The notes under the pieces: model-generated
Database searches by the model: none
Told to the model about the DNA's origin: nothing
The model's input: the letters and a program-made list of their open reading frames with translations, nothing else
Origin: Coriobacteriaceae bacterium EMTCatB1
GTDB taxonomy: Bacteria; Actinomycetota; Coriobacteriia; Anaerosomatales; Anaerosomataceae
Length of the DNA stretch: 64,000 nucleotides
Direction of reading: 5' to 3'
Assembly: GCA_001950395.1 (NCBI GenBank)
Contig: BDLO01000001.1
Span: 843,979-907,978, forward strand
Program-made: the position numbers and the translations under genes
Shown: one piece after another, positions 43,522-47,744 of the stretch
Layout of the letters: each line of letters opens with the position of its first letter
Numbering within the stretch: the first letter of the stretch is position 1

Positions 43522-44823
43522 CTATCGCTGCGCGTCGTGTGCGCCCCCGGCGGCGTCTCCTGAGCTCTCCTTCGGCCGGTAGAAGCGCCGGCCTGCAAGC
43601 TCCGGCGGCAGGTAGGACTGACGCGCGGCCTCTTCCGGCCGATCGTGAGGATAGACGTACTCGGGGTACGACTCGGCTCCAGGGCGGTGACGGTCGCGCA
43701 GGTGCTCGGGAACGGCGGCCGCGGGACCTTTCTCGACTTCTGCGAGCGCTTCGTCGATGGCCCGATAGCAGGCGTTGGACTTCGGCGCGAGCGCAAGGTA
43801 GATCGCGGCGTGCGCGAGGTTGATGCGGCACTCGGGAAGCCCCACGAACTCGGCCGCCTTCACCGCAGCGTGAGCGACAAGCAGCGCCTGCGGATCCGCC
43901 ATCCCGACGTCCTCGGACGCGAAGATCAGCATCCTTCGCGCGATGAACTTGGGATCCTCGCCGCCGGCGATCATCCGCGCAAGGTAGTAGACGGCCGCGT
44001 CCGAGTCGCTCCCGCGCATCGACTTGATGAAGGCCGAGGCGAGGTCGTAGTGCTCGTCGCCTGCCCGGTCGTAGCGCAGGTGCCGCGTCTGGGTCACCTC
44101 CGCGACGTGCTCGACGGTCACGCGAGCCACGCCGCTTTCGGTGCGCTCAGCGATGGATGCTGCAAGCTCCAATGCCGTGAGCGCAGCACGGGCGTCGCCG
44201 GAAGCCACGAGCACGATCCGGTCCTCTGCTTCCGGCTCGAGCTCGACCCGGCCGCCGAAACCGCGCTCGGGGTCTTCGAGAGCGATCCGGACGATCGTCC
44301 GGATCGCGTCGTCGGACAGCGCCCGCATCACGATCACCCGCGAGCGGCTGATGAGCGGCGCAGCAACCTCGAAGAACGGATTCTCGGTGGTCGCCCCCAC
44401 GAGCACGATGAGCCGATCCTCCACGGCGTGCAGCAACGCGTCTTGCTGCGTCTTGTTGAAGCGGTGGATCTCGTCGATGAAGACGATGGTCCGCTTCCCC
44501 GTCATGGCGAGCCGGTCCCGGGCCTCGTCGATGAGCGCACGCACTTCCTTCACGCCAGACGTCACCGCGGAGATCTCAGCGAAGTGCGCGTCGCTCGCCT
44601 GCGCGATGACGCGGGCAAGCGTCGTCTTGCCGCACCCCGGAGGGCCGTAGAGGATGATGGAGGTCAGCGAATCGCTCTCGACCGCATGCCTGAGAAACGT
44701 GCCGGGGCCGACGACGTCGTCCTGGCCGACGATCTCGTCCAGCGTGCGCGGACGCATCCTCACCGCAAGCGGAGCCGATGCCGCAAGCGCGTCCTGGGCG
44801 CTGGCAGAGAACAGGTCGTCCAT
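43522..44823 (-). CDS. rarA: Replication-associated recombination protein A (RarA/MgsA)
   Basis: 433 residues. AAA+ clamp-loader-like ATPase acting at stalled forks. N-terminal DLFSASA, RMRPRTLDEIVGQDDVVG, Walker A GPPGCGKTTLA, sensor region FIDEIHRFNKTQQD and the MgsA C-terminal domain (SDVGMADPQALLVA, EHLRDRHRPGAESYPEYVYPHD). ATG at 44823 is used because homologues begin MDLFS. A GTG at 44841 overlapping the previous stop is the other possibility. Confidence 0.92.
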   Translation of the reverse strand: MDDLFSASAQDALAASAPLAVRMRPRTLDEIVGQDDVVGPGTFLRHAVESDSLTSIILYGPPGCGKTTLARVIAQASDAHFAEISAVTSGVKEVRALIDEARDRLAMTGKRTIVFIDEIHRFNKTQQDALLHAVEDRLIVLVGATTENPFFEVAAPLISRSRVIVMRALSDDAIRTIVRIALEDPERGFGGRVELEPEAEDRIVLVASGDARAALTALELAASIAERTESGVARVTVEHVAEVTQTRHLRYDRAGDEHYDLASAFIKSMRGSDSDAAVYYLARMIAGGEDPKFIARRMLIFASEDVGMADPQALLVAHAAVKAAEFVGLPECRINLAHAAIYLALAPKSNACYRAIDEALAEVEKGPAAAVPEHLRDRHRPGAESYPEYVYPHDRPEEAARQSYLPPELAGRRFYRPKESSGDAAGGAHDAQR

Positions 44824-44837
44824 CGTCTCGCGCCGGG

Positions 44838-45392
44838 TCACTGCGTGGCGCGCAGCACCTCGCGCTCGATGACGTCGCGGTCGACGAAGCCCAGCCAGCG
44901 CCAGGTGATGAAGCCGTTGCGATCCACCACGATGATGTATGGCGTGGCTTTCACGCCGAGGTCGGCAGCAAGCATCGCGGCTTGCTTCGCGGCATCCGTC
45001 GCCTGCCCAGAGTCGCCGCCCTTGACGTCGAAGGCGACCAGATCGATCAGCCCACGGTACTCGCCTAGGACCGCATCGATCTCGGCTCGCTGCTCCTTCG
45101 TCTCAGGCTCGTCAGAATCGTAGAAGAACATGAGCATCGGACGCCCCGCGTCGAGCTTCGACTTGACGGCGCTCGGAAGGTCGGTGGACAACGCAGAGGG
45201 GAACGGCACGAGCGTCGGGGTCTCGACCGGCGAGCGATCGACGACTTGGGGCTGCTGCTGCTTGGCGGGGGCTGCCTGCTGGGCTGGGGCTTGCTGCTGC
45301 GTCTCCTGCTGGCCGCCGCCTCCTCCACCGCCGCATCCCACGAGCGTCAGCGCGAACACGGCGACGACGACGGCTGTGATGGTCCTGCGCAT
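44838..45392 (-). CDS. Thioredoxin-fold lipoprotein without a CXXC motif
   Basis: 184 residues. Lipoprotein signal TAVVVAVFALTLVGC (Cys at position 20), a Gly/Gln-rich linker, then a thioredoxin-like core (MLMFFYDSDEPETKEQRAEID, VAFDVKGG, LGVKATPYIIVVDRNGFITWRWLGFVD). The cis-Pro loop (TPYIIV) is present but the redox site is replaced by DSDEPE, so a disulphide exchange role is unlikely. ATG at 45392 follows GGGAGG. The frame is open to 45608 without lipoprotein logic. Long structured leader upstream. Confidence 0.8.
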   Translation of the reverse strand: MRRTITAVVVAVFALTLVGCGGGGGGGQQETQQQAPAQQAAPAKQQQPQVVDRSPVETPTLVPFPSALSTDLPSAVKSKLDAGRPMLMFFYDSDEPETKEQRAEIDAVLGEYRGLIDLVAFDVKGGDSGQATDAAKQAAMLAADLGVKATPYIIVVDRNGFITWRWLGFVDRDVIEREVLRATQ

Positions 45393-45620
45393 CGACACCC
45401 TCCCGACCTCGGCACAGTAGGAACTCCGCCTCGCGCGCCCCGGCAGGTGAACCTGCCTCAGCAGGTGGGTGCCCGCACCCCGGCTTCGCGCTTCCCCGGC
45501 GAGGGGGATACCGTTCCGCCGAGGGATCGTTAGGGCTCCCTGTTCAGTGGTGTTGGTTCGACCATTTTGGCCGAAGCAGCGCAAGGCGAAGCAGTTGTAT
45601 CGTAGCACCAGCCGGCCAGC
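45393..45620 (-). promoter_or_regulatory. Structured leader RNA with mutually exclusive hairpins
   Basis: The ~230-base region before the lipoprotein contains, in transcript order, hairpin C (GGGTG/CACCC, 45467-45480), hairpin A (ACCTGC/GCAGGT, 45451-45466) and hairpin B (GGCAGGT/ACCTGCC, 45442-45457). B shares its GCAGGT arm with A, so only one can form. Outer arms GCGCG (45487-45491) and CGCGC (45433-45437) could close the set. This is a switch-like arrangement without a clear U run, so translational control is more likely than termination. The class is not recognised. No ORF or tRNA is seen here. Confidence 0.4.
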
Positions 45621-45634
45621 GGTGCCACCGATGC

Positions 45635-45943
45635 CTACTTCTGCTGCTCGGATCCTTCAGGCGCCCCCTCGGTGAGCTGACGCGTGAGCGCCACGTGCAT
45701 CCGCACGTACCCGAACGCGGCGGCGAACGAACCCAGGACGATCGCGACCGCGACGGCTGGGTCCGATCTGCGCGACCACGCAGCGACGGCAGCGAGCGCC
45801 ACTAGCGTGACGGCTCCGATCGCGCGCATCGCGTACGCATTCGTGCGCGAGGTGAGGTCCCAACGGGTGATCGTCCCGGCGACCACGAAAGCCGCCGAGG
45901 ACAGGATCACGATCGCGACAGCCGCGACGAGCTCGACAGACAT
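45635..45943 (-). CDS. Small membrane protein, function unknown
   Basis: 102 residues with three predicted membrane helices (VELVAAVAIVILSSAAFVVAG; AMRAIGAVTLVALAAVAAW; VAVAIVLGSFAAAFGYVRM) and a short polar C terminus ending EGSEQQK. No recognised family. It lies between aspS and the lipoprotein leader, 20 bases after aspS. Confidence 0.6.
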   Translation of the reverse strand: MSVELVAAVAIVILSSAAFVVAGTITRWDLTSRTNAYAMRAIGAVTLVALAAVAAWSRRSDPAVAVAIVLGSFAAAFGYVRMHVALTRQLTEGAPEGSEQQK

Positions 45944-45963
45944 CGTCCCCCCCTTCTCGCACG

Positions 45964-47733
45964 CTACTCAGGCCGCAGGTGCACCTCGCGCAGCTGCCGC
46001 GCGGAGACTGGCCCCGGAGCTCCGGTGAGCGGGCACGCCCCCGACGAGGTCTTCGGGAACGCGATGACGTCCCGGATCGAGTGCTTGTGCGCGAGCAGCA
46101 TCACGAGGCGGTCGAGGCCGAGCGCGATTCCTCCGTGCGGCGGCGCGCCGTAGGTGAGCGCGTCCAGCAGGAAACCGAACTGCTCGCGCGCCTCGTCCTC
46201 TGCGATGCCGAGCACCTTGAGCACGCGACGCTGCAGGTCGGCGTCGTGGATGCGCAACGTGCCGCCCCCCACCTCGATGCCGTTGATCACGAGGTCGTAC
46301 GAGTACGAAAGCACTGACGCCGGATCCGACTCGATCAGATCGAGGTGCTCGTCGAACGGCCGCGTGAACGGGTGGTGGTTCGCGCTCCACTTGTCCTCTT
46401 CGGTGTCCCACTTGAACAGCGGGAAGTCCACGACCCACAAGCACGCGAAGCCCTCTTTGGCGAGGTCGAGCTCGCCCGCGAGGTGCGTACGGAGGGCGCC
46501 CAGCACCTCGTTCGCCGTCATTCGGGCGTCTGCGGCGAACAGCACGAGGTCTCCGGGCTCCACGGCCAGGCGCTCTCGCACCGCCGCCATCTCTTCTTCG
46601 CGCAAGAACTTGGCGATCGGCGAGCGCACCTCGCCTTCGGACGAGAACGCGATCCACGCAAGCCCCTTGGCGCCCGCCTCAGCAGCCACGGGCGCAAGCG
46701 CGTCGATGCGCCCGCGGCTCCAATCGCCCGCGCCCTTGGCGCAGATCGCCTTCACAACGCCGCCGCTCGCCAGCGCGGACGCGAAGACCTTGAACTCCGT
46801 GCCGGCGAATACGTCCGAGAGGTCCACGAGCTCCATGCCGAAGCGCAAGTCGGGGCGGTCGCTGCCGAACCGGTCCATCGCCTCGGCGTACGTCAGACGC
46901 GGCAGCGGGATCGGAAGGTCCACGCTCGCCTCGCGGAGCACCTCGCGCATGACCTCCTCCATCATCGCGAGGAGGTCGTCTTGCGTGACGAAGGACATCT
47001 CGATGTCGACTTGCGTGAACTCCGGCTGACGGTCGGCGCGCAGGTCCTCGTCGCGGAAGCAGCGCGCGATCTGGTAGTAGCGCTCCAGGCCGCCCACCAT
47101 GAGCAGCTGCTTATACAGCTGGGGCGACTGCGGAAGCGCGTAGAACTTGCCGGGGTTGAGGCGGCTCGGCACGATGAAGTCGCGCGCTCCTTCAGGGGTG
47201 GACCGGCCGAGCATCGGCGTCTCCACCTCGATGAAGCCGCGGTGCTCCAGCGACTTGCGGAAGCGCTGCGTGATACGGTCGCGCAGCGCGAGCGCGTCGA
47301 GCACCTCGGGGCGTCGCATGTCGATGTAGCGGTACTTGAGCCGGAGCGTCTCGTCGGTGGCGATGGCGCTCTCCACCTCGAACGGCGGCGTCTCGCTGCG
47401 GTTGAGGACTTCGGCCTCCGTCACGAGCACCTCGACCTCGCCCGTGGCGAGCCCTGGATTCTCGGTGCCAGGCGGGCGCTTGCGCACGACGCCCGAGAGC
47501 TTCACCACCCACTCGGGCCGCACCGACTCCGCAACGACGAAGGCCGCCTTCGAATCCTCGGGGTCGAACACGCACTGCACGAGACCGCTTCGGTCGCGCA
47601 GGTCCACGAAGATGAGCCCGCCGTGGTCGCGCCTCCTGTGGACCCAGCCCGCGAGCGTGACTTCCACGCCAGCGTCGGCAGCGCGAAGGGCGCCGGCCAC
47701 GTGCGTCCGGATCGAGTATCGAGCGTCGAACAT
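45964..47733 (-). CDS. aspS: Aspartyl-tRNA synthetase
   Basis: 589 residues, bacterial-type AspRS: N-terminal anticodon OB domain (TLAGWVHRRRDHGGLIFVDLRD), class II core (IEVETPMLGRSTPEGARDF, CFRDEDLRADRQPEFTQVDIEMSF), the bacterial GAD insertion, and motif 3 GGIALGLDRLVMLLA. The AGGAAGG site precedes ATG at 47733, 11 bases after hisS. The long upstream extension of the frame overlaps hisS and is rejected. Confidence 0.96.
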   Translation of the reverse strand: MFDARYSIRTHVAGALRAADAGVEVTLAGWVHRRRDHGGLIFVDLRDRSGLVQCVFDPEDSKAAFVVAESVRPEWVVKLSGVVRKRPPGTENPGLATGEVEVLVTEAEVLNRSETPPFEVESAIATDETLRLKYRYIDMRRPEVLDALALRDRITQRFRKSLEHRGFIEVETPMLGRSTPEGARDFIVPSRLNPGKFYALPQSPQLYKQLLMVGGLERYYQIARCFRDEDLRADRQPEFTQVDIEMSFVTQDDLLAMMEEVMREVLREASVDLPIPLPRLTYAEAMDRFGSDRPDLRFGMELVDLSDVFAGTEFKVFASALASGGVVKAICAKGAGDWSRGRIDALAPVAAEAGAKGLAWIAFSSEGEVRSPIAKFLREEEMAAVRERLAVEPGDLVLFAADARMTANEVLGALRTHLAGELDLAKEGFACLWVVDFPLFKWDTEEDKWSANHHPFTRPFDEHLDLIESDPASVLSYSYDLVINGIEVGGGTLRIHDADLQRRVLKVLGIAEDEAREQFGFLLDALTYGAPPHGGIALGLDRLVMLLAHKHSIRDVIAFPKTSSGACPLTGAPGPVSARQLREVHLRPE

Positions 47734-47744
47734 GAGCTGCCTTC

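Follow-up and report, generated by a model that had tools for sequence, protein, structure and literature searches.

A probable 6S RNA gene upstream of a thioredoxin-fold lipoprotein gene in an Anaerosomatales bacterium

The minus-strand feature at approximately positions 45593-45419 of the window, by which we mean the entire 64,000-nucleotide stretch of DNA that was analyzed, is almost certainly the 6S RNA gene (ssrS) of a bacterium of the Anaerosomatales, an order of the class Coriobacteriia within the Actinomycetota. 6S RNA is a well-known promoter mimic that parks the RNA polymerase of the cell. The gene (45419..45593, minus strand) comprises ~175 nt, with predicted ends that are accurate to within a few nucleotides. 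The 6S RNA family is already known, and the copy described here sits in a lineage where the Rfam cut-off misses most copies. Membership in this family suggests that the RNA would bind RNA polymerase holoenzyme and would have the function that is ascribed to other 6S RNAs.

Sequence and structural evidence for a 6S RNA

The initial annotation of this region had described a structured, switch-like minus-strand RNA that lies upstream of and in line with a lipoprotein gene, and this description held up, with conservation and covariation of the RNA among relatives. The Infernal search of Rfam that it had proposed for the minus strand returned 6S RNA. Specifically, a covariance-model scan of positions 45000-46000 identified a match to RF00013 at 45585-45419 (minus strand) that extended over model positions 1-187, with a score of 44.4 bits and an E-value of 1.8e-7. 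The sequence-structure match that characterizes the 6S family was therefore found across the whole family model, although the score falls 2 bits below the gathering score of 46.4 bits. This was the sole convincing RF00013 match in the 1.84-Mb genome, the next-best having an E-value of 8.46. A search of Rfam at the gathering threshold over the whole 64-kb window yielded 0 matches, and such a search therefore misses the 6S gene.

A likeness to the B12 box of cobalamin riboswitches had also been suggested, yet no match to the cobalamin family (RF00174) was detected at E-values up to 10, and a known riboswitch, whether of the B12 or another type, was rejected for want of an Rfam match. The proposal of an unclassified riboswitch gives way to a 6S RNA that is matched over its whole model, with no metabolite riboswitch. 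The other option that had been raised, a protein-binding leader, fits insofar as 6S RNAs bind RNA polymerase, a property that would extend to this copy through its family, but the RNA is a known one rather than an unclassified one. Likewise, the region had been considered free of genes on both strands; open reading frames of at least 80 aa in the mechanical list cross it on both strands, but none was taken as a gene inside it.

When folded with its predicted ends (45593-45419, minus strand), the RNA yielded a z-score of -3.62, with 0 of 200 shuffled sequences as good. The minus strand of the more generous interval 45380-45630 yielded a z-score of -2.02 (6/200 shuffles). The plus strand of that interval yielded a z-score of -0.39 (69/200 shuffles), and an RNA on that strand was rejected. 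The predicted length of 175 nt, together with a conserved -10-like element, compares with a free-standing transcript of ~180 nt as a trait of the family.

Covariation among homologs, which had likewise been proposed as a check, was evaluated with 35 of the 38 matching copies from the genome and its relatives (G014, G018, and G021 were omitted by eye as near-duplicates) and with a structure, comprising a closing stem, helix P2, a terminal arm, and an apical hairpin, that was drawn up manually from a single row of the alignment with the Rfam drawing in view. Among the 35 aligned copies, 93.5% of 1645 pair cells were kept, and two-sided changes were observed in 22 of 47 pairs (81 cells), the count of pairs with such changes being the measure that is least exposed to bias from kinship or from derivation of the structure. 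The covariation score was 0.276 versus 0.172 in shuffled alignments, and on each of the five measures taken, 0 of 500 shuffles equaled the real alignment, bearing in mind that related sequences can beat shuffles. Sliding the partners by 1-3 columns lowered the paired cells to 39-51%, a comparison in which a structure derived from the same sequences has an advantage over its slid versions. Collectively, these observations indicate that the 6S rod, in which a closing stem and a terminal arm flank a large central bubble, is backed by covariation.

Outer arms GCGCG/CGCGC, which had been proposed to enclose the hairpins, proved to be part of a longer closing stem (P1) that pairs 45592-45577 with 45438-45423 on the minus strand. 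Its 5' strand (45577..45592) occupies columns 2-19 and its 3' strand (45423..45438) columns 175-192 of alignment A2, with some of the pairs absent in the copy in the window. The inner end of this stem is poorly kept (21/35 copies for columns 19-175 and 15/35 for columns 24-172). In the terminal arm, the 5' strand of helix P4 (GGGAGCCC; 45533..45540, minus strand) and its 3' strand (GGGCACCC; 45467..45474, minus strand) were paired with each other in 100% of cells. A 5' hairpin at 45575-45557 that appears in the minimum-energy fold was kept out of the structure, since all of its pairs are possible in just 8 of 35 copies.

Genomic neighborhood and putative transcript

The predicted RNA is followed on the same strand by a ribosome-binding site seen in the sequence (GGGAGGG, 45398..45404) and by a gene for a lipoprotein with a thioredoxin-like domain that starts at ATG 45392 (44838..45392; PF13098, E-value 8.3e-6, 26.5 bits against a cut-off of 27). 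The lipoprotein lacks a CxxC motif, and its single cysteine is that of a lipobox-like VGCG. The list of open reading frames starts this gene at a GTG 72 codons further upstream (44838-45608, minus strand, 256 aa), such that it takes in the whole 6S gene, which is a likely annotation trap. Further downstream lies rarA, which codes for replication-associated recombination protein A (43522..44841, minus strand; PF12002, E-value 7.5e-62). On the other side lies aspS (45964..47740, minus strand; PF00152, E-value 1.3e-120), with a 5' end that is approximate and placed by eye and an open reading frame call that over-extends to 48318. Between aspS and the 6S gene is a 102-aa open reading frame (45635-45943, minus strand) that is hydrophobic by eye and has no Pfam or NCBIfam match; tblastn at an E-value of 1e-4 detected it next to 6S in 17/37 relatives.

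In all 37 relatives the lipoprotein gene follows 6S on the same strand and starts 16-50 nt past the end of the Rfam match, as estimated from protein alignments, and a script detected a Shine-Dalgarno-like motif in 33 of 35 downstream stretches. Homologs of rarA were present in the stretches from 34/37 relatives, and those of aspS and hisS in 35/37. The lack of aspS and hisS in G037 and of rarA in G033 and G030 represents real absences from the stretch, given that the fetched sequence continues, while the stretches from G021 and G022 stop at contig ends.

This arrangement resembles that of the Bacillus subtilis 6S-1 (bsrA) type, where aspS and rarA also lie close by. According to excerpts of PMC8414754, 6S and rarA are close together in lactic acid bacteria as well as in B. 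subtilis, where, unlike in the window, rarA runs in the opposite direction relative to 6S, and an excerpt of PMC11077062 places aspS and yrvM at the flanks of bsrA. The gene order aspS-6S-rarA echoes that of the Bacillota, and such a neighborhood is a supporting rather than a defining trait of the 6S family.

An extended -10 promoter-like element seen in the sequence (TGCTACGAT; 45599..45607, minus strand) precedes the 6S gene. The best -10 hexamer near this site, picked by script as the best match and therefore favoring the consensus, had the form TAnnnT in 34 of 35 copies (CACAAT in the remaining one) and was TACGAT in 15; TG was present at the extended position in 23/35 copies, and the -35 region is weak. 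A generic scan of positions 45300-46050 returned no sigma-70 consensus promoter and no terminator, and only 1 of 35 copies has five consecutive T in the first 30 nt downstream. This makes read-through beyond 6S likely. In this respect the window differs from lactic acid bacteria, whose 6S genes are mostly followed by a terminator according to an excerpt of PMC8414754; in the window, no terminator is seen and a protein gene comes directly after.

The lack of a visible terminator, together with the ribosome-binding site of the lipoprotein gene ~15 nt later, suggests that 6S RNA is probably excised from a longer transcript, which would comprise 6S, the lipoprotein gene, and possibly rarA. Since it lies 16-50 nt before the lipoprotein gene in all 37 relatives, 6S probably also heads the lipoprotein mRNA. 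A dicistronic arrangement is known from ssrS-ygfA of Escherichia coli, where 6S RNA heads a transcript with a protein gene, as it probably does here, that gene being ygfA rather than one for a thioredoxin-fold lipoprotein. An excerpt of PMC11077062 reports that 6S-1 binds the sigma-A holoenzyme even when extended by neighboring mRNA, and this would fit a 6S RNA inside a longer transcript.

To cross-check the assignment, a second model (R1) was built from the 35 aligned copies of the order Anaerosomatales. Across 80 rarA loci from titled records, R1 yielded 16 matches at E-values up to 1, and these comprised two training copies (L070 and L071), nine loci from Bacillota (including Marinithermofilum, Laceyella, Tuberibacillus, and three from Brevibacillus), four of Coriobacteriia type, and one other from the Actinomycetota (L081). 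Twelve of the 16 loci were run through Rfam at the gathering threshold, and seven of these were assigned to RF00013, each at the place identified by R1: six from Bacillota (all six tested of the nine) and training copy L071. The four Coriobacteriia-type records and L081 fell below the Rfam cut-off. In three Coriobacteriia-type records (L072, L075, and L076), the 6S match and rarA are adjacent but occupy opposite strands, indicating that the order has changed while the linkage has been kept.

It is very unlikely that the RNA is a cis-acting leader, either a riboswitch or a protein-binding element, with the lipoprotein gene as its sole target. In favor of such a leader are the position of the RNA 16-50 nt before the lipoprotein start on the same strand in 37/37 relatives, the absence of a terminator from the window scan and of a five-T run from all but one of 35 copies, and the competing hairpins described below. 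Yet the 6S match covers the whole RF00013 model, and the other two Rfam matches in the region have E-values above 1. Moreover, some homologs lie so close upstream of rarA (~180 nt in L074; ~90 nt in L081, L090, and L096) that a lipoprotein gene would not fit between them, and others lie opposite to rarA in strand (L072, L075, and L076), all of which argues against such a leader.

Distribution of 6S RNA homologs among Actinomycetota

Among the genome and 40 relatives, 38 of 41 had a match to RF00013, 30 of which were over the cut-off; the remaining three (G026, G034, and G039), with assemblies of 320-520 contigs, yielded no copy with either RF00013 or R1. Across the class Coriobacteriia, 270 of 296 genomes had a match at E-values up to 0.01, with 52 over the cut-off, in a scan that scored fewer candidates, such that G031, which was matched in the scan of 41 genomes, was lost there and regained by R1. 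When applied to the 20 listed of the 26 genomes missed in the class, R1 matched nine, with the matches in G081 and G137 covering only part of the model. In those two genomes, which belong to genus g30, the loci concerned (L175 and L174, respectively) match R1 within model positions 46-136. The other 11 of the 20 stayed unmatched, including G162, an assembly of one contig that is 99% complete.

In a draw from the phylum, 131 of 396 genomes had a match, 90 of them over the cut-off, and from the listing we counted 93 of these 131 as members of other classes than Coriobacteriia. In 20 further genomes that were reached through named loci, R1 and RF00013 picked identical places in the same seven, namely five of six Coriobacteriia-type records (all except L073), L081, and L085. 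Neither model matched at E-values up to 0.01 in any of ten named Actinomycetes genomes, including Mycobacterium simulans, and neither matched in L101 or L104, with the caveat that large genomes had their first-look candidates scored only in part.

Excerpts of two reports address this distribution. One states that 6S RNA is unidentified in actinobacteria save for one candidate in Streptomyces (PMC11077062), and the other that 6S RNA is widespread except in Actinobacteria, with mention of a Streptomyces candidate that shows synteny with Firmicutes 6S-1 (PMC9130861). The statements of absence agree with the ten Actinomycetes genomes screened here but not with the Coriobacteriia. Weinberg et al. 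(2010) report an expansion of the 6S RNA collection (PMC2864571). In the open-licence literature, no report linking 6S RNA to Coriobacter, Rubrobacter, or Eggerthella was found, and Collinsella and 6S RNA co-occur only in unrelated passages.

The affiliation of the genome with the Actinomycetota raises the alternative of an RNA of the Ms1 kind, a partner of the sigma-free RNA polymerase core in Mycobacterium and Streptomyces, given that Ms1, which is structurally related to 6S RNA, is a known polymerase-binding RNA of this phylum in the excerpt of PMC9130861. We consider this highly improbable. The neighbors are aspS, the lipoprotein gene, rarA, and a small open reading frame without a family match, with no HAD hydrolase of the kind that the same excerpt describes at Ms1 loci; R1 cross-matches 6S RNAs of Bacillota; and neither model matches at E-values up to 0.01 among the candidates scored in the ten named Actinomycetes genomes, a comparison in which Ms1 was judged by its description rather than its sequence.

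Central-bubble hairpins, pRNA template, and implications

Three perfect hairpins that share one arm had drawn attention to this region. All three are present on the minus strand, and the first (45442..45457; 6 bp, loop of 4) and second (45451..45466; 6 bp, loop of 4) overlap and exclude each other, but the third (45467..45480; 5 bp, loop of 4) lacks the shared arm. At least two such 6-bp hairpins occur in 16% of 1000 dinucleotide shuffles and in 24% of 1119 tiles of the window, and 5.2% of shuffles attain the hairpin count at 5 bp; with counts this ordinary, hairpin density was dropped as evidence. The chance of these being fortuitous hairpins in GC-rich intergenic DNA, with which such counts would be compatible, is nonetheless negligible in view of the covariation (two-sided changes at 22/47 pairs, equaled by 0/500 shuffles) and of the conservation of the RNA both within an order and outside it.

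Presence in relatives differs among the hairpins. The second, which is the 3' central-bubble hairpin, is possible in 35/35 copies when G-T pairs are allowed and is the only general one of the three; it shares bases with P2, and covariation is silent on it because its sequence is almost invariant. The first, an alternative that pairs the 3' central bubble with the strand beside helix P2, can form all six pairs in 9/35 copies and is perfect in four members of the genus and in G006. In the window it is predicted to be the stronger (-11.1 kcal/mol versus -6.3 kcal/mol for the general hairpin) and is the one present in the minimum-energy fold. The third is possible in 4/35 copies (G-T allowed) and is not general because bases 45467-45474 belong to helix P4.

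The 5' central bubble holds a pRNA template of the kind found in the 6S family, in the form of a template sequence rather than a pRNA. The predicted pRNA (45552..45569, plus strand) starts GUUGG, compared to GUUCGG in B. subtilis (PMC12005410, in excerpt), and its template, as counted by alignment column, is CCAAC in all but one of the 35 copies, the exception having CCAAT. The base just upstream of the predicted start is A in 32/35 copies and G in 3/35. An A that precedes the start and GG at positions 4/5 are pRNA hallmarks in an excerpt of PMC8414754; both agree with the window, and these hallmarks, together with an alignment with Bacillota copies, were used to place the start at 45552. The whole-model match, the 3' central-bubble hairpin, the A just upstream of the pRNA start, and the early GG all liken the RNA to B. 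subtilis 6S-1 as excerpted.

As a member of this family, the RNA would mimic an open promoter and bind the RNA polymerase holoenzyme that carries the housekeeping sigma factor, chiefly in slowing cells. The polymerase would then copy a short pRNA (predicted as GUUGGUUCGACC...) from the 5' central bubble, upon which 6S RNA would be released. Synthesis of the pRNA would open helix P2 and allow the 3' side to refold, and the two mutually exclusive hairpins sit there, in the 3' central bubble, the refolding region of 6S RNA. According to excerpts of PMC8876501, B. subtilis 6S-1, whose 3' central bubble contains a hairpin, is bound at its central bubble by the holoenzyme, which transcribes a short pRNA, whereupon P2 opens and refolding and release follow. 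In the same excerpts, a second 3' hairpin hindered release in B. subtilis, whereas release in E. coli is driven by an extended hairpin that arises during this step and joins the 3' central bubble to the 3' strand of P2. The genus-level alternative hairpin at 45442-45457 distinguishes the window from B. subtilis 6S-1 and resembles the extended release hairpin of E. coli as described in those excerpts.

A broader proposal, which taken as a whole we regard as speculative and rather improbable, has three parts. The 6S RNA of Anaerosomatales might act as a global polymerase regulator while also serving a stress operon (the thioredoxin-fold lipoprotein gene and rarA) as its obligate 5' leader, and cutting or folding of 6S would set the output of that operon. 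In the genus of the window, the stronger hairpin at 45442-45457 might swap a B. subtilis-type release for an E. coli-type release or lock the RNA on the polymerase. Finally, 6S RNA might have persisted in several classes of the Actinomycetota, with Ms1 taking its place in the class Actinomycetes alone.

Of the 270 Coriobacteriia genomes with a match, 218 fall below the Rfam cut-off, which leaves a practical gap. The probable 6S RNA gene described here lies in a phylum that is described, in the excerpts cited above, as lacking 6S RNA, and if the distribution holds, the exchange of 6S RNA for Ms1 would have happened inside one phylum, where it would be traceable.
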